Part shown: one piece after another, positions 12,878-49,190 of the stretch
Layout of the letters: each line of letters begins with the position of its first letter
How positions within the stretch are numbered: the stretch's first letter is position 1
DNA from: Lewinella sp. W8
GTDB lineage: Bacteria > Bacteroidota > Bacteroidia > Chitinophagales > Saprospiraceae
Assembly (NCBI RefSeq): GCF_004375085.3
Contig: NZ_SNAQ03000016.1
Span: 110,696-174,695, forward strand
DNA: 64,000 bases
Reading direction: 5' to 3'
The notes under the pieces: generated by a model
Seen by the model: only the letters and a program-made list of their open reading frames with translations
Database searches by the model: none
What the model was told of the DNA's origin: nothing
Made by a program: the position numbers and the translations under genes

Positions 12878-14227
12878 TCACGTCAGCTCATTCAGCAGCT
12901 GCTCGGCTTTTCTCCGGTAGGGATGGTTGGGGGTGGCGGAGATCTCGGAGAGGATCGCCAGGGCGGCGGGCCGACGACCTTCGGCGAGGAAGGCGAGGGC
13001 TTCGTACCATTCGGAAAAGGGGTGGTAGTAGTCTCCCCGGGGAATTTGCTCGAACCACTCCAGGGCGCGGCTCGGTTGCTCCAGCGCCAGGGCGCAAACG
13101 CCCAGGTAGAGCGGTGCCGCCGGATAGGCCTGGGCGACGGGAAGTAGTTCTTCGTAGGCGTTGCGGTAGTCCTTGCGGTCGTAGTAATACAGGATGTCCT
13201 GCAGGTCCTTTTCCATGGCGTCGCGGGGGGCGCGGCGCTCAAAAACGTTGGGGAAGGGTTCAAAGTGCGCAACGTAGGTTCGCTGGGGTGCTCCGCCCCC
13301 GAAAGTGTCCCAGATGAGCCAGCCGAAGGCCAGGAAGAGGGCTACGGCCACCAGGGTCTGGAGGCTGGGCAGTTCCAGGTTGCCGAGTTTTATGCCGTTG
13401 GGCCGGCGGGGACTCAGTTTGACGTCCTTGGGCGTGGCCGCAGGTGCCGGGGTCGCCACGACGGCATAGCGTTCTTCTTCGCGCAGCAGGGTTTCCATGA
13501 GGTCTTGCCGACCGGCCACCACGAGCACCTCCGCCCAGTCTTCGCGGATTTCCATGGCCCGGCGGAAAACGTCATCCCCGGGCCGGCGGGCTTCCACCTC
13601 CCAGCGCTCGCCCATGGCGAGCTGCCCGAGGAAGTAGCGATCAATGAGGGCTTCGTCTCCCGGACTGGGGATGAACATCGGGTCCACGATCCCCGCAGCC
13701 TGCCAGGATTCGCGGGCCATGATCTGGCACTTCCGGCGGCGGCTCTCAATTTCCACTACCTGGCCCTCAATCCCCATCACCTGGGCCATACGGGCGTTGT
13801 TGAGCCGGTGGTATTCGGCCATCAGCATCAGGTCCCGGCACCCCTTGCCCATCTCGTTGAACTGCCGTAGCATCAGCTGTTGCGTTTCACTCAGCCGGAT
13901 GGGGCGGGGGAGGTAATCCAGGGGATTCTGTACCCCCTCTTCCAGCAGTCCCAGCGGCCGCTGGTCGGCGGCCGCCAGCGCGGAACCCAGGTTGCCCTGG
14001 AAGTAGAGGTCGGTGACGGCCTGGACGTAGTTGAAGATGTCTCCCTGGTAGGGGTTCTCCGGCTGGATGCGTGCCTCGTACCAGCCAATCAGGGCCCGGC
14101 GAAAGTGCGCCAAACGTTCCGCTTCGGGGCGCTGGTAGGCGGCGGACCACGCCAGAAAGGTCTTCCGCAGGGTGTGGAAGTGACGGGGAAGTTCGGCTAG
14201 AAAAACGCCTTGACCAACGGCAGGCAT
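12878..14227 (-). CDS. Sigma-70-like helical domain fused to a membrane-anchored TPR-like domain
   Basis: 449 aa, family not recognised with certainty. Residues about 20-105 are helical. Residues 113-175 resemble sigma-70 region 4: an LSETQQLMLRQFNEMGKGC helix, then a helix-turn-helix-like MAQVMGIEGQVVEIESRRRKC. One membrane helix spans about 287-306. The C-terminal 100 residues look like tandem TPR units (LYLGVCALALEQPSRALEWFEQIP and following). The arrangement puts the sigma-like part in the cytoplasm and the TPR part in the periplasm. It may be a degenerate ECF-type regulator rather than an active sigma factor. The gene stands alone, in line with a small membrane protein and the DUF5916 gene upstream. 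Confidence 0.65.
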   Translation of the reverse strand: MPAVGQGVFLAELPRHFHTLRKTFLAWSAAYQRPEAERLAHFRRALIGWYEARIQPENPYQGDIFNYVQAVTDLYFQGNLGSALAAADQRPLGLLEEGVQNPLDYLPRPIRLSETQQLMLRQFNEMGKGCRDLMLMAEYHRLNNARMAQVMGIEGQVVEIESRRRKCQIMARESWQAAGIVDPMFIPSPGDEALIDRYFLGQLAMGERWEVEARRPGDDVFRRAMEIREDWAEVLVVAGRQDLMETLLREEERYAVVATPAPAATPKDVKLSPRRPNGIKLGNLELPSLQTLVAVALFLAFGWLIWDTFGGGAPQRTYVAHFEPFPNVFERRAPRDAMEKDLQDILYYYDRKDYRNAYEELLPVAQAYPAAPLYLGVCALALEQPSRALEWFEQIPRGDYYHPFSEWYEALAFLAEGRRPAALAILSEISATPNHPYRRKAEQLLNELT

Positions 14228-38078: not shown

Positions 38079-38232
38079 AATCGGATTGAGACGTTCCACG
38101 TCAAATGCCTCCCACTGGAGGCGGTTCCTCAAGTTTTCATATATCTATGCCTTGCCCCGAAATGTAGCATCCTTTCTTCTAAGGACCGGCTTGGTCGGCC
38201 GAATTAAAATTCTGTTCCGCAAGCAAGACTTT

Positions 38233-38284
38233 GCACCTGTACCGGCTGAGCCGAGTATTCCGCTGCGCTTCACGGTCCCTCGCC
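38233..38284. repeat. 52-bp dispersed element, copy 2
   Basis: Matches 19975-20026 and 49097-49148 (core GTACCGGCTGAGCCGAGTAT). It lies about 190 bp before the first caspase-FGE gene, and copy 3 lies about 400 bp after the last gene of the island. Confidence 0.8.
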
Positions 38285-38442
38285 CATAAGTTATTAGGGG
38301 CCACCGGGATTGTATTGATCAATTATCCAAGCGACACCCACCGCTAAGGGCTGGGACCGTCCAAGTAATAGTTTTAGCTCCGGACTTGCCGAGGTCGACG
38401 CGCGCCAAAGGCTGATATACTGAGGGTGTACGGCGAATCCCC

Positions 38443-38470: not shown

Positions 38471-40363
38471 ATGAATTTACGGTTTTATTTTCTCCTAGCC
38501 CCGTGGCTACTGCTGGCCCTGCCCGTTACGGCTACTGACTACGCCCTCTTCTTTGCGGTGGAGGAATACGAGCACATGGCTCCCCTTTCCAATCCGATTG
38601 ACAACGTCACTAAAATTGCTGACGAGTTACGGGATAGCTATGGGTTTCGTACGGAGGTGGTATCCAATCCTACCTTTGCGGACATTGCGAGTAAGATTCA
38701 TGAATACGAGCAGCTTTTCGCCTCCGGGGAATATGATCAGCAGGGGCAGTTGCTGATCTTCTTTAGTGGTCACGGGGTACAGGAGGGAAACAATGGCTAC
38801 TTCATCCCCAAAGATGGTGACCCCAGCAAGCTTTACGAACGGGTTATTGAATACGATTACTGGCGCAACAAAATTGACCAGATCGCTTGTCAGCATATTC
38901 TGGTCACGATTGACGCTTGCCACTCCATCACTTTTGACCCGAATTGGCGTAATAAAACTGATCGCAACTTCGGCCGACGCGGGGATCAGGCCAAAGATTT
39001 GGTGCGTCTGCATCATAAAAGCTTTCGCGCCCGGCTGTTCTTCACCTCCGATGGAGAGAACAACGAAACCCCCGACCGTTCGACCCTGGCACGGCAATTT
39101 TTGAATGGCTTGCGGACGCACCGCAGCGCCAACGGCTACCTATCGGCTAGTGTGCTTTTTGCGGATTACCTCAAGGCCTCCGCCCCCGTTCCTGGAGGGG
39201 GTGATTTCGGTAGCGATGATCCGGGCTCCCGATTTTTGTTTTTCTACCAAAATTTAGAGCGTGATCCGGAGGAAATCAAGACGGACCTCAGTGATTGGCA
39301 GCGGGCACAATCCGAAGATTCCTGTCCGGCATACAAAGCCTATCTGGAAAAGCACCCCAACGGTGATTTCGTGGAGCCAGCCCGACAAAAACTGGAACCT
39401 TGTGAAGCGGAGGAGCGGATGTTTACCGCCTGGCAAACCGCTAAGCGACGGGACGATTGTGAAGCCTACCTGCAGTTCCTTGCTGATTATCCCGAAAGTC
39501 CTTATGCGTCGCTATTGCTGGATCGCCTAAGGGCGCTCAACTGCAGTAGTGTCATTCCACCCCCCGAGAACATGGTCCTGATCCCCGGTGGTACCTTCCA
39601 AATGGGCGACCAATTCGGTGGAGGATCTGGAGACGAAAAGCCCGTGCACCCCGTAAGCTTGACGGAGTTCTACCTGGGCCTAACCGAAGTAACCAACCGG
39701 GAATACGCCGAGTTTTTGAGTGCCGTGGGTAACCAGGAGCAGGGAGGAAAGAAGTGGTGTCTCACCACCGAAAATGCAAACATCAACGAATCGGGCAACA
39801 GCTTTACGCCAAAGGAAGGGATGGGTGACCATCCGGTAGCCACGGTCAACTGGTACGGGGCGATTGCCTACTGCAACTGGTTGAGCGAGCAACACGGGCT
39901 AAAGCCAGTGTATCGGGTCAGTGGCACTACGGTCACGGCCGACTGGACCGCCAACGGCTACCGCTTGCCCACCGAGGCAGAGTGGGAATACGCGGCCCGC
40001 AGTGGCGGCCAGCGGGAAAAATGGGCGGGTACTTTCAGTCAGGAAGACATCGCGGATTTCGCCAAATATGGCGGCAAGGAAGCCGGTCCGGGGCCGGTGG
40101 GGATGCTGCGGGCCAATAACCTGGGACTGGCGGACATGTCTGGCAACGTCTGGGAATGGTGCTGGGATCGGTACGCGGGGGATTATTATAAGCAGTCTCC
40201 ACAAGATAACCCCCGGGGACCCAGTACGGGAACAAACCGCGCTTTGCGCGGGGGGAGCTACTGGGACTACCTGCAGGATTGTAGCACGACAAGTCGTTAT
40301 GATTTCAACCCCCTGTCAGGCAGTATCCTATTTGGGTTTCGAATTGCCCGCAATGTTTACTAG
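38471..40363 (+). CDS. Exported caspase-like (C14) / FGE-CLec fusion protein, copy 1
   Basis: 630 aa from the ATG at 38471. Upstream frame is non-coding, and this start gives signal peptide MNLRFYFLLAPWLLLALPVTA. Caspase/C14 domain about 22-260, with catalytic His101 (FFSGHG) and Cys150 (IDACHS). Two about 40-residue helical, Cys-containing TPR-like units at about 276-358. FGE-sulfatase/C-type-lectin-fold domain 367-630 (NMVLIPGGTFQMGDQF to GFRIAR). The terminal 41 residues (590-630) correspond to the diversified region of genes 2 and 3, but the DNA has drifted beyond the template pattern. It lacks the first catalytic Cys of true FGE. Interpretation: a periplasmic or surface caspase carrying a ligand-binding head. 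Target and cleavage substrate are unknown. Confidence 0.88.
   Translation: MNLRFYFLLAPWLLLALPVTATDYALFFAVEEYEHMAPLSNPIDNVTKIADELRDSYGFRTEVVSNPTFADIASKIHEYEQLFASGEYDQQGQLLIFFSGHGVQEGNNGYFIPKDGDPSKLYERVIEYDYWRNKIDQIACQHILVTIDACHSITFDPNWRNKTDRNFGRRGDQAKDLVRLHHKSFRARLFFTSDGENNETPDRSTLARQFLNGLRTHRSANGYLSASVLFADYLKASAPVPGGGDFGSDDPGSRFLFFYQNLERDPEEIKTDLSDWQRAQSEDSCPAYKAYLEKHPNGDFVEPARQKLEPCEAEERMFTAWQTAKRRDDCEAYLQFLADYPESPYASLLLDRLRALNCSSVIPPPENMVLIPGGTFQMGDQFGGGSGDEKPVHPVSLTEFYLGLTEVTNREYAEFLSAVGNQEQGGKKWCLTTENANINESGNSFTPKEGMGDHPVATVNWYGAIAYCNWLSEQHGLKPVYRVSGTTVTADWTANGYRLPTEAEWEYAARSGGQREKWAGTFSQEDIADFAKYGGKEAGPGPVGMLRANNLGLADMSGNVWEWCWDRYAGDYYKQSPQDNPRGPSTGTNRALRGGSYWDYLQDCSTTSRYDFNPLSGSILFGFRIARNVY
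40238..40363 (+). other. Drifted DGR-type variable region of copy 1
   Basis: Aligned to the gene 2/3 variable regions, residues at the 12 diversified positions are again non-identical and aromatic/acidic-rich (W,D,Y; D; S; Y,D,F; and others). The framework codons have also changed, and the 94-bp conserved tail is absent after the stop. It was probably once a target or descends from one, and is not freshly rewritten. Confidence 0.45.
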
Positions 40364-40602: not shown

Positions 40603-40621
40603 TTTGGAACGTCTCCGCGCC

Positions 40622-42589
40622 ATGACCTTGCCACGCTTTTTCTTTTTCCTTGCTTTATTCCTGCTGGTGGGTGTATTGCCCGCTAAGGATTACGCTATCT
40701 TCTTTGCTGTGGAGGACTATCAGCACATGACAAAGCTCACCAACCCGATTGACAACGCTACGGCGATCGCCGATGAATTGCGGGACAATTATGGGTTCCA
40801 GATTGAGGTGGTGCCGAACCCTACCTTTGCCGAGATTGCGGGGAAAATTCAGGAATACCAGCAGCGCTTTGCCTCGGGGGCCTTTGATCAAAAGGGGCAA
40901 CTCCTGATCTTTTTCAGTGGCCACGGAGTACAACGGGGGAACAACGGCTATTTCATTCCGAAAGACGGTAATCCGAGCAAGCTGTACGAACGGGTGATCG
41001 AATACGATTACTGGCGTAACGAAATTGACCAAATCGCCTGTCAGCACATTCTGGTGACGGTAGATGCTTGCCACTCCCTCACCTTCGATCCGAACTGGCG
41101 CAATAAGACCGATCGGAACTTCGGCCGCCGGGGTGATCAAGCCAAAGATCAGGTACGGCTGGATTACCAAAGCTACCGGGCCCGACTGTTCTTTACCTCG
41201 GATGGGGTCAACGACCAGACGCCGGACCGCTCCACTCTGGCCCGGCAATTCTTACTCGGCCTACGGACCCACCGCACCGCCAACGGCTACCTCTCTGCCA
41301 GTGAGCTATACGCGGGTTATTTGAAGGCAGCTGCTCCGGTTCCTGGTGGTGGCGACTTTGGTCGCGATGAACCGGCTTCTCGCTTTCTGTTTTTCCGGAA
41401 ACAGGCCCAGGGTGATATTTCGGGAGTGCAGTCTGATTTAACGGACTGGCGTATTGCGGAGGCACAGGATAACTGTTCGGGTTACCGCACCTACTTACAG
41501 AAACACCCCAGAGGGGACTTCGCAAGTATGGCCCGAACGAAAATTAATTCATGCGAGAAAGAAGAGCGAATGTTGGCCGCCTGGCAAAACGCGAAGACTC
41601 GGGGTGATTGTGGTACCTATAAGAAGTTTAACGAAGATTATCCCGATAGCCCTTACGCAGACCTCGTGCGGGAGCAGCTCTTCATGATGAATTGTAAGGA
41701 GGAGACGCCCCCTTCGGTGCCGCAGTCGCCTCCTACAATTGAAGAAGTAGATCCGGATGAGATAGAAATGGAGGCACCTGACAACATGGTCTTCATCCCC
41801 GGCGGCACCTTTCAGATGGGCGACCAGTTTGGCGATGGCGAGGATGACGAAAAGCCGGTACACAGCGTAACGGTCTCCGACTTTTACCTGAGCCGCACCG
41901 AGCTGACCAACCGGGAATACGCGGAGTTTTTGAGTGCGGTGGGTAACCAGCGTCAGGGAGGTGCCCAGTGGTACGATATTGAAAGTAGTTACGCGGGCAT
42001 CACCGGCTCCGGCAACAGTTACGTACCCAAGGCGAGTATGGACGATCATCCGGTGGTGGAAGTGAGCTGGTACGGGGCGGTGGCCTACTGCAACTGGCTG
42101 AGTGAGCGGCACGGACTGACCCCGGTCTACCGGGTAAGCGGCACGGCGGTCACCCCCGACTGGGCGGCCAATGGCTACCGGCTGCCGACGGAAGCGGAGT
42201 GGGAGTACGCGGCGCGCAGCGGTGGTAAACGGGAAAAGTGGGCGGGGACTTCCAGTGAACAAGACTTGAGACAGTTTGCCAACTACGATGGTGATGCCGA
42301 CGGCTACGCCCGGACGGCTCCGGTGGGAATGCTGCGGGCGAACAACCTGGGCCTGGCGGATATGAGCGGCAACGTCTGGGAATGGTGCTGGGACTGGTAC
42401 GCCAGTGACTACTACGGAAAATCACCGGGCAGTAATCCGAAAGGCCCGGGATCGGGTACTTTCCGCGTTATTCGCGGCGGTAGCTGGAACTTCTACCCCC
42501 AGATTTGCCGCACGGCCCGTCGTAGCAATTACGGGCCTTCCGATCGCAACAGGTACGTTGGCTTCCGCCTCGCCCGCAGTTCAAAGTGA
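40622..42589 (+). CDS. Exported caspase-like / FGE-CLec fusion, copy 2, DGR-type diversified
   Basis: 655 aa from the ATG at 40622 (an in-frame TTG 18 nt upstream would weaken the signal peptide). Signal peptide MTLPRFFFFLALFLLVGVLPA. Caspase domain with His101 (FFSGHG) and Cys150 (VDACHS), very similar to copy 1. Two TPR-like Cys-containing units at about 275-358, a Pro/Glu-rich linker at about 359-385, and an FGE/CLec domain from about 389 to the end, more like that of copy 4. Variable region: residues 615-655, with 12 diversified residues at 623-625, 628, 633, 635-637, 641 and 643-645. The FGE active-site Cys336 equivalent falls on variable residue 624 (Phe here), so catalysis is not expected. 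Caspase and FGE modules have different closest relatives in the array, implying recombination. Confidence 0.9.
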   Translation: MTLPRFFFFLALFLLVGVLPAKDYAIFFAVEDYQHMTKLTNPIDNATAIADELRDNYGFQIEVVPNPTFAEIAGKIQEYQQRFASGAFDQKGQLLIFFSGHGVQRGNNGYFIPKDGNPSKLYERVIEYDYWRNEIDQIACQHILVTVDACHSLTFDPNWRNKTDRNFGRRGDQAKDQVRLDYQSYRARLFFTSDGVNDQTPDRSTLARQFLLGLRTHRTANGYLSASELYAGYLKAAAPVPGGGDFGRDEPASRFLFFRKQAQGDISGVQSDLTDWRIAEAQDNCSGYRTYLQKHPRGDFASMARTKINSCEKEERMLAAWQNAKTRGDCGTYKKFNEDYPDSPYADLVREQLFMMNCKEETPPSVPQSPPTIEEVDPDEIEMEAPDNMVFIPGGTFQMGDQFGDGEDDEKPVHSVTVSDFYLSRTELTNREYAEFLSAVGNQRQGGAQWYDIESSYAGITGSGNSYVPKASMDDHPVVEVSWYGAVAYCNWLSERHGLTPVYRVSGTAVTPDWAANGYRLPTEAEWEYAARSGGKREKWAGTSSEQDLRQFANYDGDADGYARTAPVGMLRANNLGLADMSGNVWEWCWDWYASDYYGKSPGSNPKGPGSGTFRVIRGGSWNFYPQICRTARRSNYGPSDRNRYVGFRLARSSK

Positions 42590-42650
42590 GCGCGATGAGC
42601 TACGAGCCGGCCCGGCGCCGACCGAGCCGGAGCGCGGCGGTAGCCAGCGC
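42464..42650 (+). other. DGR variable region plus invariant tail, copy 2
   Basis: 42464-42556 is the core, in which 20 bases differ from gene 3, all within 12 codons. Every difference is compatible with an adenine in a common template of AAY-type codons. Framework bases between them are identical. 42557-42650 (94 bp, 61 bp of it beyond the TGA stop) is 100% identical to 44771-44864 and holds a G/C-only run from 42607 to 42620, similar in kind to the IMH element that sets the 3' limit of mutagenic retrohoming. No template repeat or reverse transcriptase is found in the window. Confidence 0.88.
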
Positions 42651-42698
42651 CCGGTGGGGGCGGGATTGGACTGGGGAGTTTTTGGGGCTCTATCAATG

Positions 42699-42771
42699 TC
42701 GCGAGGCCCTGAGCCGCTGCCCGGCATCGGCTTGCAGACCACGCTTATGGAGGAGGACCCCTCCGGGGCCC
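42699..42771. repeat. TCGCGAGGCCCTGAG hairpin element, copy B
   Basis: Follows caspase-FGE gene 2. About 85-90% identical by eye to copy C at 44913-44984. Confidence 0.75.
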
Positions 42772-42796
42772 AGATAGGTAAACCCCTCCTGGTGGA

Positions 42797-42809
42797 GACG
42801 TTGCACGTC
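42797..42809. repeat. GACGT-TGC-ACGTC split palindrome
   Basis: Same sequence and same flanks as 40449-40461, here about 160 bp upstream of caspase-FGE gene 3. Confidence 0.55.
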
Positions 42810-42940
42810 GACTGGCTTTCGCAGTAAGGGAAAAGAATAGGGATCGGCAGCTACCCAAATGTGTTTAAATGCTCCCGCTCGGGAGTGGGCAAGTGAAATT
42901 AGGAGGCGTTTTGGCCGCTAGGATATATTCCATTTTCTTC

Positions 42941-42948
42941 TTTTTTTG
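42941..42948 (+). promoter_or_regulatory. Candidate -7 box TTTTTTTG of caspase-FGE gene 3
   Basis: Positional counterpart of TATTTTTG before gene 4 (same flanks TTCCATTTTCTTC...GTCCG), with T in place of the A. 19 nt upstream of the ATG. Confidence 0.3.
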
Positions 42949-42967
42949 TCCGAAACACCTCCACACC

Positions 42968-44803
42968 ATGGCCTCTCCACGATTTTTCTTCTGTTTTGTG
43001 TTTCTGATATTGGCGGCGACCCTCGCCGCCAAGGACTACGCCCTCTTCTTCGCCGTCAATGACTACGACCGGATGACGAATCTGCGCAACCCGATCCAGA
43101 ACGCACGGGAAATTGCGAAGGAGCTGCGGGACAAATACGGTTTCCGGACCGAGGTGGTGGAGAACCCAACACTGGTGACCATCGAGGAGAAACTGGCGGA
43201 ATACAAGGCGAAATTTGCCAGCGGGGCCTTTGACCAGAAGGGGCAGCTGCTGATCTTTTTTACGGGACACGGCACGATGAGGGGGCGCAATGGCTACTTC
43301 ATGCCTAGAGACGTAGACCCCAGTATTGTGCACCGCACCGGACTGGAATACGATTACTGGCGGGATGAGATCAACGGCTTTGCCTGCCAGCATATTCTGG
43401 TGACGGTAGATGCCTGCCACTCGGCGACCTTTGACCCTGATTTCGGGAAAAATGGCCGGGACTTCTCCCGGAAGGGGGACAACACCAAAGACCAGATTCT
43501 GCTGGATCACCAGGCGTATCGGGCCCGCCTATTTATCACCTCCGACGCCCAGGGCAACGAGACGCCCGATAACTCCACCCTAGCCAGGAAGTTCCTGCTG
43601 GCCCTGCGCAGCCACCGCTCCCAGACGGGATATCTAACCCATGACGTACTGCTGGGGACTTACCTGAAGCAAGCCAGTCCCATCCCCGGCGGCGGGGAGT
43701 TTGGCGGGGATGAGTCGGCTTCCCGGTTCTTATTCTTTCGTAAGAATACCGGTCCCAGTATTGATCTCCAGGACCAGCGGGCCTGGGATTTTGCCCGGCA
43801 GCAAAAAAGTATGGCTGCCTACCAGTACTACCTGAACAGCTTCCCCAATGGCCACTACCGTGGGGCCGCCCGCACGGCACTGGATAAAATTCCGACGGCT
43901 CCAGCCCCAACCCGAACAGGCACAAAAATTCCGGACTTTCTCGTCTTCATACCCGGTGGTACTTTCCGGATGGGGGATACGGTAGAGGATGAGATGGGGG
44001 AGGATGACGAGAAACCGGTCCACACCGTAGCCCTTTCCGATTTTTACCTGGCCCGCACCGAGGTGAGCGTAGCTGAGTTTGCCACCTTCGTGGATGCCAC
44101 CCGCTACGTAACGGAGGCCGAGCGTGACGGGGGTAGCTACAAATGGACGGGAGGAAAATGGGAAAAACAGCCTGGTACCAACTGGCGGTACGGACCCTTT
44201 TTCAAGGAACGTCCGGAAAGCGACTACAATCACCCCGTGATTCACGTAAGCTGGAACGACGCGGTACGCTACTGTAACTGGCTGAGCCGCGAACATGGAC
44301 TGCAGGAAGTGTACACCCTAGTGGGTGATGAGGTGACGCCTGATTGGGGGGCCAACGGCTACCGCCTGCCCACCGAAGCGGAATGGGAGTACGCGGCCCG
44401 CAGCGGTGGCAGAGACCACCTCTATGCCTGGGGCACCGGGGAACCCAACGGTAACGTAGCGGATGAGTCGGGCAACTGGTCAGAAGGCTCGGTGATCTTC
44501 ACGGGCTACAATGATGGGTATCACGGCACCAGTCCGGTGGGAAAGTTTCCTCAGGGAAATTATGGCTTGGCGGATATGACCGGCAACGTAAATGAATGGT
44601 GCTGGGACTGGTACGCCAGTGGCTACTACGGAAAATCACCGGGCAGTAACCCCAGAGGACCTAGTACGGGTACTTACCGCGTTATTCGCGGCGGTAGCTG
44701 GGGCAGCAGCCCCCAGGGTTGCCGCACGGCCAATCGTTTCAGTAACGGGCCTTCCAATCGCAGCAATAGCGTTGGCTTCCGCCTCGCCCGCAGTTCAAAG
44801 TGA
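42968..44803 (+). CDS. Exported caspase-like / FGE-CLec fusion, copy 3, DGR-type diversified
   Basis: 611 aa from the ATG at 42968. Signal peptide MASPRFFFCFVFLILAATLA. Caspase domain with His101 (FFTGHG) and Cys150 (VDACHS). One shorter helical unit at about 273-305, where copies 1 and 2 have two. FGE/CLec domain about 319-611, of a different subtype: it has the long EAERDGGSYKWTGGKWEKQPGTNWRYGPF insertion and RDHLYAWGTGEPNGNVAD that resemble canonical FGE more than copies 1, 2 and 4 do. Despite this divergence, residues 571-611 match gene 2 at all 29 framework positions and differ at all 12 variable ones. This is the key evidence for template-driven rewriting. Likely a ligand-diversified exported caspase. 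Confidence 0.9.
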   Translation: MASPRFFFCFVFLILAATLAAKDYALFFAVNDYDRMTNLRNPIQNAREIAKELRDKYGFRTEVVENPTLVTIEEKLAEYKAKFASGAFDQKGQLLIFFTGHGTMRGRNGYFMPRDVDPSIVHRTGLEYDYWRDEINGFACQHILVTVDACHSATFDPDFGKNGRDFSRKGDNTKDQILLDHQAYRARLFITSDAQGNETPDNSTLARKFLLALRSHRSQTGYLTHDVLLGTYLKQASPIPGGGEFGGDESASRFLFFRKNTGPSIDLQDQRAWDFARQQKSMAAYQYYLNSFPNGHYRGAARTALDKIPTAPAPTRTGTKIPDFLVFIPGGTFRMGDTVEDEMGEDDEKPVHTVALSDFYLARTEVSVAEFATFVDATRYVTEAERDGGSYKWTGGKWEKQPGTNWRYGPFFKERPESDYNHPVIHVSWNDAVRYCNWLSREHGLQEVYTLVGDEVTPDWGANGYRLPTEAEWEYAARSGGRDHLYAWGTGEPNGNVADESGNWSEGSVIFTGYNDGYHGTSPVGKFPQGNYGLADMTGNVNEWCWDWYASGYYGKSPGSNPRGPSTGTYRVIRGGSWGSSPQGCRTANRFSNGPSNRSNSVGFRLARSSK

Positions 44804-44864
44804 GCGCGATGAGCTACGAGCCGGCCCGGCGCCGACCGAGCCGGAGCGCGGCGGTAGCCAGCGC
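44678..44864 (+). other. DGR variable region plus invariant tail, copy 3
   Basis: Core 44678-44770 and identical 94-bp tail 44771-44864. Variable codons read G,S,S; G; N; F,S,N; N; S,N,S. Eleven of twelve end in C or T in both copies, as expected for AAY template codons. The one third-base difference (AGG against AAT) still fits an adenine in the template. Confidence 0.88.
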
Positions 44865-44912
44865 TGGGCGGGTGGCGGGATAGGGCTGGGGAGTTTTGGG
44901 GCTCTGTCAATG

Positions 44913-44984
44913 TCGCGAGGCCCTGAGCCGATGCCAGGCATCGGCTTGCAGACCACACTCAGGGAGGAGGACCCCTCCGGGGCC
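44913..44984. repeat. TCGCGAGGCCCTGAG hairpin element, copy C
   Basis: Contains a perfect 9-bp inverted repeat with a single-base spacer. Follows caspase-FGE gene 3. Confidence 0.75.
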
Positions 44985-45157
44985 AGACAGGTAAACCCCT
45001 CCTGGTGGAGAAGTTGCACGTCGAATCGCGCTCCCGGCAGCGAAGGGAAAAGACAAGTGCTGCCGATCTGCTCAACGTTGATGGGACTACCCTACGCTAA
45101 ATCCTTCATTCATTCCGGGGCCGTTCCCGGGTGACGGGTAAATATTCCATTTTCTTC

Positions 45158-45184: not shown

Positions 45185-46843
45185 ATGATCTCCCCCAGAA
45201 TTTGTTTTTTGATCCCGTTGATGGCCCTGGCATTTTCCCTGCCCGCCAAAGACTACGCCATCTTCTTTGCTGTGGATAATTACTCCCAGGTCACGGGATA
45301 CGATAATCTGTCAGACCCCATCGCCAGTGCAGAAAAGCTATCCGCCGAGCTGAAGGACATGTATGGCTTTTCCACGGAGGTGGTGAAAAATCCTTCCCGG
45401 ACCAAAATTTACGAGAAGCTGCGCGAATACCGGAGAAAGACCTTTGGCCATGACGATCAATTGCTCGTCTTTTTCTCCGGTCACGGAGAATTCGATGAAT
45501 TTGAAGTGAAGGGGTATTTCGTGCCCTATGCTGGTCGGAGTATTGACCTGACAACTCTCGGAAACATTGTGACCGAGATACCCTGTCGGCATATTTTGCT
45601 GGCGATTGACGCCTGCTATTCGGGCACCATTGATGCCAAGATAGCCTTCAAGGGCAGGACCTTTTCACGGGCTGGCGTGACGGCGGATACGGAGCGGCAA
45701 AACCTGATCGCTCGGAAGCTACGGAATAAATCTAGGCTCTTGCTAACTTCCGGGGCTAAAGAACGCACGCCGAGTCGGTCTGGTGGCTCCCCTTTCGCGC
45801 TGGGTTTTCTAAACACTCTCCGTGCTGCCTACGGTAGCGGCGATGGCCTGGTTACTTACGAGGACCTTTTGGCTCGGATGGAACGCGTCAGCCCGGTACC
45901 CCACCACGGGAGACTGATCGGGCACGAGGAGGGGAGTTTTGTGTTTGTGACCAAGGGCATAGTTCCGCCGCCACCCCCACCACCGGTTGTAAATCGTACG
46001 GCACGGAATACTACTACTCGTAACCCACCCCCCGACAACATGGTCTTCATCCCCGGCGGCACCTTCCAGATGGGGGACCAGTTTGGGGATGGAGACGAGG
46101 ATGAAAAACCGTTACACTCCGTAACGGTATCTGATTTTTACCTTAGTAAGACTGAATTGACTAACCGGGAATACGCCGAGTTCCTGAGCGCGTTGGGTAA
46201 TCGGGAGCAGGGTGGCACTCAGTGGTACGAAATTGGAAGCAAAGATGCGGGTATAACGGGCTCCGGTAATAGCTACGTACCCAAGGCAGAGCTGGTCGAC
46301 CACCCGGTGGTAGAGGTAAGCTGGTACGGGGCAGTGGCCTACTGCAACTGGCTGAGTGAACGGCACGGACTTAAGCCGGCCTACCGGGTGAGTGGCAGCA
46401 CGGTCACCCCAGACTGGACGGCCGACGGTTACCGTCTGCCGACGGAGGCGGAGTGGGAATATGCGGCCCGCAGCGCCGGCAAGCGGGAAAAATGGGCGGG
46501 GACCTCCAGCGAGGGGGAACTGACCCAGTTCGCCAATATTAGCGGGGAGGCCGATGGCTACGCCCGCACGGCTCCGGTGGGAATGCTGCGGGCCAACAAT
46601 CTAGGGTTAGGGGACATGAGCGGCAACGTGTGGGAATGGTGCTGGGATTGGTACGGCGTGGATTATTACGGCAAGTCTCCGGGGAGAAACCCTAAGGGGC
46701 CTAAAGTGGGCTCTCTCCGCGTTATTCGCGGCGGCAGTTGGTACCGCAACCCTCAGTATTGTCGTGTGGCTGATCGTATTAACAACGGGCCCTCCCAACG
46801 CAACAATACCGCCGGCTTCCGCCTCGCCCGCAACGCCAACTAA
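45185..46843 (+). CDS. Exported caspase-like / FGE-CLec fusion, copy 4 (shorter)
   Basis: 552 aa from the ATG at 45185. Signal peptide MISPRICFLIPLMALAFSLPA. The caspase domain is the most divergent of the four, with His100 (FFSGHG) and Cys144 (IDACYSG). No TPR-like units, only a Pro-rich linker (PPPPPPPVV at about 261-269) before the FGE/CLec domain (about 284-552). That domain closely resembles copy 2 (GGTFQMGDQFGDG, GITGSGNSYVPKAE). Residues 512-552 show the same framework with different residues at variable positions (Y,R,N; Y; D; I,N,N; Q; N,N,T). Framework bases have drifted and the 94-bp tail is missing, so it may be an older target or use another template. Confidence 0.88.
   Translation: MISPRICFLIPLMALAFSLPAKDYAIFFAVDNYSQVTGYDNLSDPIASAEKLSAELKDMYGFSTEVVKNPSRTKIYEKLREYRRKTFGHDDQLLVFFSGHGEFDEFEVKGYFVPYAGRSIDLTTLGNIVTEIPCRHILLAIDACYSGTIDAKIAFKGRTFSRAGVTADTERQNLIARKLRNKSRLLLTSGAKERTPSRSGGSPFALGFLNTLRAAYGSGDGLVTYEDLLARMERVSPVPHHGRLIGHEEGSFVFVTKGIVPPPPPPPVVNRTARNTTTRNPPPDNMVFIPGGTFQMGDQFGDGDEDEKPLHSVTVSDFYLSKTELTNREYAEFLSALGNREQGGTQWYEIGSKDAGITGSGNSYVPKAELVDHPVVEVSWYGAVAYCNWLSERHGLKPAYRVSGSTVTPDWTADGYRLPTEAEWEYAARSAGKREKWAGTSSEGELTQFANISGEADGYARTAPVGMLRANNLGLGDMSGNVWEWCWDWYGVDYYGKSPGRNPKGPKVGSLRVIRGGSWYRNPQYCRVADRINNGPSQRNNTAGFRLARNAN
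46718..46843 (+). other. Divergent DGR-type variable region of copy 4
   Basis: Most variable-position codons still end in C or T with changes at bases 1 and 2 relative to genes 2 and 3. About ten silent or framework substitutions separate it from their shared framework, and the sequence after the stop is unrelated. Confidence 0.5.
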
Positions 46844-46859: not shown

Positions 46860-46935
46860 CGGGGCCCCGGAGGGGACTTCCTACCCGAGCGAGGTCACAA
46901 CCCGATGCTTTGCATCGCGTTGGGGCCTCGCGAAC
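46860..46935 (-). repeat. TCGCGAGGCCCTGAG-type hairpin element, reverse copy D
   Basis: Read on the minus strand it matches copies A-C (CGCGAGGCCCC, GATGC-AAA-GCATC hairpin, CCCCTCCGGGGCC). It lies between the last caspase-FGE gene and the secreted protein gene. Confidence 0.65.
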
Positions 46936-47020
46936 ACGGCGAGTAGCCATCAGTCACATCCCCTACAGACAAGGATATCTTTCCAAAACCGTAATTTCAT
47001 CACACCAACACCCACCCACC

Positions 47021-47986
47021 ATGCGCAGCATCCCACTTCTTCTGCTCTTCACCCTGCTACTTGGCACCAGCGCTCGCGCCCAAAAAAATCAGGACCTCCG
47101 GCAAGATTCCACCTTTTTTGAGCAACAGGCCGCCCTTTACCAGGCATGGCTCGACGACACGGGGATCGGACAGTATTTGCGGTACCGGGAACTGGACGTC
47201 GGCGAACAAGAACTGGCCATTTACCTGGAATTCAAAACCAGCGATCTGGATCTGATCGTCAATCAGTGGACAACGCTCAAGGAAGGCTTTGAGGAACAAT
47301 CGGCGATCAGCCTGGAGCAACAGCTGTTCTACAAGGCCGCCAACCTGATGGAGGTGCGGCAGTCCGCCCTGAGTGTACAGGTGTACGATACCTACGACCT
47401 GCGCAAGGAGCCCCTTTTTTCCCGGGTAGCGTACTTCGAGGACGGTAGGGTACAGGTGGAGGAGTCCAACCCAAAGTCCCCCATCAAACCAATTCAGTTG
47501 ATGCCCCGGGCCATTGGGGAAAGGGCGGCGCCCAGCACCGCCGATTTCCAGGCGCAACTCAACCGGGAAAAAGCCTACGAATGCATCCTGGACTACGCCC
47601 GCGAGCGCTACGAGAATGCGGGCTACAACGGGAAATTGCCCGAGATTCGGGTGCTGGAAGACGAGGAAAACCTTCGCTTCGAAATCATTGATCTGCGACT
47701 GGAGGTCCTTAAAGGCTCCAACGTGCTGTGCCCCTGGCTGGAGAAGCGTGGCTACAATTGTCCCTGGGCCAAAAGGGAGCTGCTGACCTTCCTGTTTACC
47801 TATTTACCATCCGCCAATGGCGTCGTCATTTCCGGAGATATTGACGGCAAGGTAGGCTCGGGACTTTACGCCAACGTAGAACGGGGGGGCTACCTCAGTA
47901 TGGAAAAGGACTACGACGAGACCATTAAAAGCTACATTGACGCCTTCACCGTGGAACTGAAAAATCGGCTGCGCAACTGTCAATAA
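47021..47986 (+). CDS. Secreted protein of unknown function, coupled to the EAD-like membrane protein
   Basis: 321 aa from the ATG at 47021. The upstream frame overlaps hairpin element D, and this start exposes the signal peptide SIPLLLLFTLLLGTSARAQ. No known domain recognised. It is mixed alpha/beta with several Tyr/Glu-rich helices and a conserved-looking Cys pair in CPWLEKRGYNCPWAK (about residues 232-246). The stop overlaps the next ATG (TAATG at 47984-47988), so the two genes are translationally coupled. It lies 177 bp after the last caspase-FGE gene on the same strand, suggesting membership of the same system. Confidence 0.75.
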   Translation: MRSIPLLLLFTLLLGTSARAQKNQDLRQDSTFFEQQAALYQAWLDDTGIGQYLRYRELDVGEQELAIYLEFKTSDLDLIVNQWTTLKEGFEEQSAISLEQQLFYKAANLMEVRQSALSVQVYDTYDLRKEPLFSRVAYFEDGRVQVEESNPKSPIKPIQLMPRAIGERAAPSTADFQAQLNREKAYECILDYARERYENAGYNGKLPEIRVLEDEENLRFEIIDLRLEVLKGSNVLCPWLEKRGYNCPWAKRELLTFLFTYLPSANGVVISGDIDGKVGSGLYANVERGGYLSMEKDYDETIKSYIDAFTVELKNRLRNCQ

Positions 47987-48693
47987 TGAATCAGGAGGAA
48001 TTTAAGGACGAGCTCCGCCGCCTCGTGGCGGCCAACCGACTGGAGGATGCCAGTAAGAAACTACTCAACGCCACCGCCAGCGATGACTACGGGGAATACC
48101 GCCGCCTGGTACTGAACCATTCCGGAGAACTCACGGGCTACCACCAGCAGGAAGTGATGGGCACCGCCGATCCGGCACAACTGACCCGTACCCGCAACGC
48201 GATCAGCCTGAAATTACTGACCCTCATTGATCAGCTCCCCGACGCCGCCGCGCTGGCCGCGGCAAAAAAGAAACCCGAGGGCGTGGCGGAAGATCGCCTG
48301 AAGAAACGGCTGTTCTGGATGTTGCTCCTGGGTAAGGGGCTGGTCATCGGATTCGCCGCGCTGCTCTGGAGTACCAACTCCTTCACCAACGAGCAATTCA
48401 TCACCGTAGTGGGCATGTTGGTGCCCCTCTTCGCCGCTCACCTGACGCTGATGGTCCAGGATGCCACCAAACACCGCGGCATCCTGAAGCCCGGAGACAA
48501 ACGGGTAAACACCAGTTTCGCCCGCATGGCCTACGTGCTGGTGATCGGCTATGCCCTGGTGCTGCTTTTTCTACTCAACCTGCGGGGCCCAGGTACGATT
48601 ACCTTCCTCCAGTTTACTACTTTCCTGGCGCTGGCGGAGAGTGGGTTAGGGGCGTATTTGGGGAAGGTGGTGTATGGGTTGTTTAAGGATTAA
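47986..48693 (+). CDS. Membrane protein with an N-terminal EAD11-like domain
   Basis: 235 aa. Residues 1-86 (FKDELRRLVAANRLEDASKKLLNAT, then RLVLNHSGELTGYHQQEVMGT, then LTRTRNAISLKLLTLIDQLP) follow the pattern of Effector-Associated Domain 11: L-x-x-L-I/V-A-x-x-x-L-E-x-A, an L-x-(S/G)-x-(Y/L)-x-x-(L/Y) helix, and a final R-x-x-I/A-x-x-x-LL-x-LID-x-L helix. Four hydrophobic helices follow at about 104-122, 132-150, 174-193 and 199-218. EADs are small adaptor domains that join effectors such as caspases to sensors in bacterial conflict systems, and their presence beside four caspase genes is telling. The assignment is by pattern recognition, not a profile search. Confidence 0.72.
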   Translation: MNQEEFKDELRRLVAANRLEDASKKLLNATASDDYGEYRRLVLNHSGELTGYHQQEVMGTADPAQLTRTRNAISLKLLTLIDQLPDAAALAAAKKKPEGVAEDRLKKRLFWMLLLGKGLVIGFAALLWSTNSFTNEQFITVVGMLVPLFAAHLTLMVQDATKHRGILKPGDKRVNTSFARMAYVLVIGYALVLLFLLNLRGPGTITFLQFTTFLALAESGLGAYLGKVVYGLFKD

Positions 48694-48948: not shown

Positions 48949-49096
48949 TCGTTCTCCCGTTCTCCCGAGACCTCGGAGCAGCACCGCGACCTGCGGCCAG
49001 CGGCGACGGCTACGAGGACCGGGAGATTCCCCGCTCGTCCGCCCAAACGCGAAGCACGAGCTGGGTGGTCGGCCGAGCTAAGGCAGGCTAGACCTT

Positions 49097-49148
49097 GTAC
49101 CTGTACCGGCTGAGCCAAGTATTCCACTGCGCTTCACGGTCCCTAGCC
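49097..49148. repeat. 52-bp dispersed element, copy 3
   Basis: Matches 38233-38284 with about four mismatches. Confidence 0.8.
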
Positions 49149-49190
49149 CAAACCAATTCCTTCCTCTTAAGTCCTCAATCCTAAAACCTC

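Follow-up and report, generated by a model that had tools for sequence, protein, structure and literature searches.

Two adjacent caspase-FGE genes of Lewinella sp. W8 with likely variable regions of a diversity-generating retroelement

A contig of Lewinella sp. W8 (NZ_SNAQ03000016.1, positions 110,696 to 174,695; this whole stretch of 64,000 nucleotides is referred to here as the window) carries an array of four genes in which a caspase domain (PF00656) is joined to a domain of the FGE type (PF03781), and the second and third of these caspase-FGE genes end in segments that are identical except at a small set of codons. By which process could these codons be replaced while the bases around them remain the same? 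An earlier reading, made from the sequence alone (the sequence-only reading), had taken the two 3' ends for variable regions (VRs) of a diversity-generating retroelement (DGR). It is highly probable that they are indeed such regions and that adenine-mutagenic retrohoming, with a single template for both, rewrote their codons; the reverse transcriptase (RT), the accessory protein and the template were not found in the assembly, and the cassette holding them has most likely been lost.

Variable regions and the templates of related genomes

The second caspase-FGE gene (40622..42589; all the features of the window named here are on the forward strand) encodes 655 aa from an ATG in an open reading frame that opens at 40604, with both Pfam domains over the cut-off. 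Its variable region (VR1, 42461..42586) comprises 13 variable codons within 42461-42556, followed by a conserved framework up to the stop codon. The third gene (42968..44803; 611 aa from the likely ATG in a frame opening at 42869, with the same Pfam domains) ends in VR2 (44675..44800), the 13 variable codons of which lie within 44675-44770.

The segments 42464-42650 and 44678-44864 align without gaps. As the sequence-only reading had it, 42464-42556 and 44678-44770 differ at 20 bases in 12 codons, each of which changes its residue while 29 of the 41 residues are identical, and the next segments (42557-42650 and 44771-44864) are the same throughout, including a 61-bp non-coding tract after the stop codon (42590..42650, identical to 44804-44864). 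A thirteenth codon, TTC/TAC at 42461-42463, was added after the template of genome G033 had been seen; in the relatives it too corresponds to an A-codon of the template. Counting it, there are 21 base differences, of which nine are at first, 11 at second and one at third codon positions, and A is present in one copy at 17 of the 21. In 12 of the 13 variable codons the third position holds the same pyrimidine in both copies (given the codon usage of the four genes, 12 or more such codons out of 13 have p = 7.5e-9). The remaining 151 bases of 42464-42650 show no differences, as against 32 in 281 aligned bases of the flanks (14/100 upstream and 18/181 downstream; Fisher p = 8e-7), 9 gap columns being excluded from the flank counts and the flank limits having been set after the identity profile; for the 61 non-coding bases alone (0/61) the p value is 0.0025. 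Both the Fisher and the third-position tests are post hoc.

The claim that every difference can be explained by an A in a shared template is true, but weak by itself, because A can become any base; since too much can be read into a pattern that rests on two sequences, the templates of relatives were used as the independent test. Complete DGRs, with an RT and a template/VR pair, were found in two genomes of the same genus (G005 and G006), in three others of the family (G021, G033 and G276) and in one other of the order (G047). The window's own template being unavailable, these relatives' templates were aligned to the window VRs by the GGSW motif. The G276 template has 13 AA-codons among its 40, and these fall precisely on the 13 variable codons of the window (p = 8e-11); all the 13 are likewise covered by the templates of G033 (14 AA-codons of 43; p = 4e-10) and G021 (15 of 40; p = 9e-9). 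Without the later-added codon the same three templates cover 12 of 12, and the A-codons of the G005, G006 and G047 templates fall on 11 of the 13. Judged by the relatives' templates, the variation is confined to template-adenine codons, fully in three genomes of the family and at 11 of 13 in the other three, and on this ground the assignment to DGR-type variable regions is supported.

The behaviour of the relatives' own elements is consistent with the pattern. In 11 template/VR pairs from five relatives, with the ends trimmed, mismatches were observed at 2/858 non-A template positions, at 189/287 As beside another A and at 14/54 isolated As; the rate at isolated template As is low, with which it agrees that isolated As within the identical tract of the window have stayed unchanged. 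Moreover, G033 and G276 each have a complete DGR that targets this caspase-FGE family in cis. Mismatches facing a template A make up 13/13, 20/22 and 20/22 of those in the three caspase-FGE VRs of G033, and a second VR of G276 (13639-13760) lies outside the open reading frames listed for that locus. Among 120 listed proteins of 670 hits, 56 (three of them the window's own) fit the VR pattern; at their 13 variable columns K, E, Q, M and W together make up 13 of 728 residues, compared with 19.8% before the VR. The other 64 failed the strict pattern and were left out, several of them having shifted similar ends and others lacking that end.

The undetected mutator and other explanations

Several results weigh against retrohoming from a shared template. 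The sequence-only reading had placed the RT and the template elsewhere in the genome, which this assembly (a draft of 6.18 Mb in 91 contigs, with an estimated completeness of 100%) does not support. An RVT_1 profile search, sensitive enough to recover the DGR RTs of G005, G006, G021, G033 and G047, found one RT only in the assembly, at the end of contig C32, and none of the DGR type; the DGR RT proteins of G005 and G033 used as queries matched the same place only. With 340 bits, the C32 RT scores above the group II maturase cut-off of 300, which the RTs of G033 (154) and G005 (84) do not reach. This group II intron maturase gene (L001/L066) is cut off by the contig end. A search of the assembly with the VR DNA found no template: the significant places were VR1, VR2 and the fourth gene of the array (75%), the other 17 places having E values of at least 0.6. 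A 19-bp match to the VR 3' end on contig C6 lies in an unrelated-looking open frame and was rejected. The G005 HRDC query matched the assembly only inside much longer frames, of 731 and 757 aa, Avd and MSL not being searched for. Among 27 loci scanned for an A-biased repeat pair, 12 have one and 15, the window included, have none. With RT and template absent from the assembly searches, the genes are filed as orphan DGR targets and not as a DGR.

The framework itself raises two further points on the same side. Only two of the four paralogs, the second and third genes, have the recent framework in common, the VR of the fourth gene showing 11 framework differences from VR1 and 11 from VR2. Further, template/VR similarity in the relatives stops near the stop codon, so retrohoming does not directly explain the 61 identical bases beyond it, for which gene conversion may be needed besides retrohoming. 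The tract could be a recognition element, part of a longer template or a product of conversion between the paralogs. A hairpin reading was tried and rejected, the two copies folding no better than shuffles (z -0.40 and -0.57). The 3' end of VR1 and VR2 resembles that of a G005 VR, and the sequences that follow two G005 VRs also fold no better than shuffles (z -0.22 and 1.38). Stronger folding was observed downstream of one VR of G021 (z -2.40) and of two in G033 (z -6.73 and -5.20), where the hairpins could equally be terminators.

Measured against the refuting condition of the sequence-only reading itself, a closed genome with neither a DGR RT nor an A-rich template, the outcome is mixed: neither was found in this draft, but the DGRs of the relatives show that a DGR origin is not refuted by a missing RT. 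A template carrying A at all 13 of these codons presumably once existed. We prefer loss of the cassette to its having been overlooked, given the full completeness estimate and the agreement of all three RT searches with the search for a template; one draft assembly cannot decide between loss and missing sequence. At E <= 1e-15, 2 of 21 genomes of the genus match the G005 RT, and at E <= 1e-12 G003 and G017 add weak matches of 26-28% identity. In a family sample, 66/398 genomes match that RT at E <= 1e-12, a count that takes in weak matches to RTs of other kinds; the caspase-FGE query is matched at E <= 1e-40 by 88/398, in many of them through the FGE part alone. G018, G146 and G410, all of them drafts, likewise have caspase-FGE genes and gave no such RT match. 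DGR-like RT frames with internal stop codons were observed in two genomes of the family (G166:C1:5458851-5459855 and G075:C134:414000-414989); they are possible decaying mutators.

The rival that survives best, a serious one though rated below an even chance, is that the RT and the template are in the cell and act in trans from a contig, plasmid or prophage missed by the draft. Recent homing is suggested by the complete lack of framework divergence (0/151), and another genome of the family, G135, probably has a caspase-FGE gene targeted in trans: the VR of this gene, on contig C140 (L135:8498), differs at 20 positions from a template on contig C112, where an RT also lies, 19 of the differences facing a template A and 16 falling within the 13 codons. 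A variable-region-like match on another contig of G005 (L132) was rejected for want of pairing with that genome's template. PMC10907252 reports targets in trans, as well as disrupted loci whose structural variants keep the RT. Against such action stand the estimated completeness of 100% with neither DGR RT nor template found and, for a phage-borne template, two patterns run against viral contigs with 0 hits, which is weak evidence as exact matching misses variants.

Ordinary gene conversion between the paralogs, combined with strong diversifying selection on the binding face, is very improbable as the whole explanation, although some conversion is likely. The sequence-only reading was right that the gene bodies further upstream have diverged, but wrong in calling the downstream spacers clearly diverged: 42651-42835 and 44865-45050 are about 90% identical, 42361-42460 is 86% identical to its paralog, and similarity is raised over about 470 bp around the VRs. 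Conversion would also account for the identical 61 bp after the stop codon. It does not account for the shared third-position pyrimidine in 12 of 13 replaced codons, for the absence of differences at the 151 other sites or for the coincidence of the variable codons with the A-codons of the relatives' templates. Cassette shuffling from silent 3' donor copies, as in pilin-type antigenic variation, is hardly credible: the array has several paralogous 3' ends, but all three significant places of the VR DNA search are in array genes and none is a silent donor copy.

The array, its proteins and its neighbours

The first gene of the array (38471..40363) has the Pfam domains and a degenerate variable-region-like end at 40235-40351, and the fourth (45185..46843) has the same domains and an older variable region at 46715-46831. 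They are followed by a hypothetical gene (46910..47986), which has no Pfam match, and an EAD11 gene (47986..48693; PF19964, E 1.2e-11) encoding a hydrophobic protein with likely membrane segments, as judged by eye; both have homologs in the caspase-FGE loci of other genomes. Homologs of both members of this pair (46910-48693) are present in seven loci (L131, L132, L134, L137, L138, L140 and L143), most of which were chosen for their caspase-FGE matches. The association suggests that the hypothetical, EAD11 and caspase-FGE genes form a three-gene system, with the EAD11 protein perhaps as a partner in the membrane. The array, together with the EAD11 gene, lies between the two copies (38219-38286 and 49083-49150; 90% identical) of a 68-bp direct repeat, which could be an island marker or another dispersed repeat. 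A separate dispersed repeat of about 75 bp (TGTCGCGAGGCCCTGAG...) is found at 42692-42772 and at 16 other places of the genome, in the array spacers and on six other contigs.

His101 and Cys150, which we take to be the catalytic dyad of the caspase domain, are invariant across 31 aligned proteins, and the N-termini look like export signals, judged by eye rather than by a predictor. The PF03781 match and the match of the FGE domain to Treponema denticola TvpA (PDB 2y3c; E 1.4e-35 by sequence, TM 0.74 normalised to the target) both indicate a C-type-lectin/FGE fold with a C-terminal variable region. In an alignment to the FGE structure 6muj, only one of the two cysteines that are presumably the active-site pair is kept, the other falling on a variable codon, and the domain is therefore unlikely to be an active formylglycine-generating enzyme. 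The structure model has a mean pLDDT of 82.5, but with a pTM of 0.47 its domain arrangement is not reliable. The proteins are probably ligand-triggered proteases, in which the caspase domain is fused to a TvpA-like C-type-lectin domain.

Known systems and the proposed fate of the receptors

The closest counterpart is the DGR of G033 (L131), which has PF00656+PF03781 targets, the same VR layout and homologs of the hypothetical gene (37% identity) and the EAD11 gene (32%). Its order is caspase-FGE, HRDC, RT, template, caspase-FGE, hypothetical, EAD11 and caspase-FGE; unlike the window, in which none of the three was found, G033 thus holds HRDC, RT and template inside the array. In G276 the caspase-FGE, HRDC, RT, hypothetical and EAD11 genes also share a locus, with the last two on the other strand. 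The DGRs of G005 and G006 (L050 and L053) have FGE-type VRs at equal positions, and the 3' end of a G005 VR is similar, but these loci keep HRDC, RT and template, coincide at 11 and not 13 codons and, in the single G005 target examined for domains (L050:12186-12989), encode a short FGE-only protein. A Roc, COR and CHAT protein is encoded upstream of the G005 DGR (L050:8611-11730). HRDC is listed as a DGR accessory in a passage of PMC10053308.

TvpA, a DGR variable protein according to a part of PMC7159879, shares the fold and the C-terminal variable region; its solved chain (294 aa) is without a caspase domain. The bacterium Thiohalocapsa belongs to a different phylum from the host of the window. 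For its strain PB-PSB1, portions of PMC10907252 describe DGR conflict systems with diversified C-type-lectin sensors tied to caspase-like, TIR or trypsin effectors, as well as trans and incomplete DGR loci; the systems described there differ from the window in being STAND or MoxR systems, in the CHAT type of the caspase-like domain of the DGR 2 target and in the DGR RTs that the genome retains at other loci, and the structural variants of the disrupted loci keep an RT. Conflict systems in which DGR-diversified FGE or lectin domains go with effectors of the caspase-like and other types, along with trans targets and loci that have lost parts, are described in PMC10907252, PMC7159879 and PMC8195603, so the kind is already known. 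In the literature searched, this member, the probably exported caspase fusion, the EAD11 neighbourhood and the mutator-less state were not met, nor was any paper pairing a DGR with Lewinella found. A signal peptide or membrane segment is reported for most cellular target clusters in an excerpt of PMC8144416.

A possible course of events can be outlined. A shared template with A at the 13 codons would have served adenine-mutagenic retrohoming in rewriting both VRs, and an exported caspase-family protease would thereby display a C-type-lectin (FGE-type) domain with a randomised binding face. Binding of a ligand would switch on the protease, perhaps with the hypothetical and EAD11 proteins, and with the mutator no longer there both variants would be passed on as fixed receptors. 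We tentatively suggest, at somewhat less than even confidence, that the array is an exported caspase with a retroelement-randomised lectin face whose mutator has since been lost, the receptors being frozen and caught soon after the switch, while relatives keep the mutator in like arrays.

The VR pairs are recognisable without a nearby RT, and surveys anchored on the RT miss such pairs by design; that a survey of this kind would not detect remote targets is noted in a passage of PMC8144416. In these two genes a DGR-type variable domain is joined directly to a caspase that is probably exported. Like gene arrays with and without a detected mutator offer a natural comparison for the fate of hypermutated receptors.

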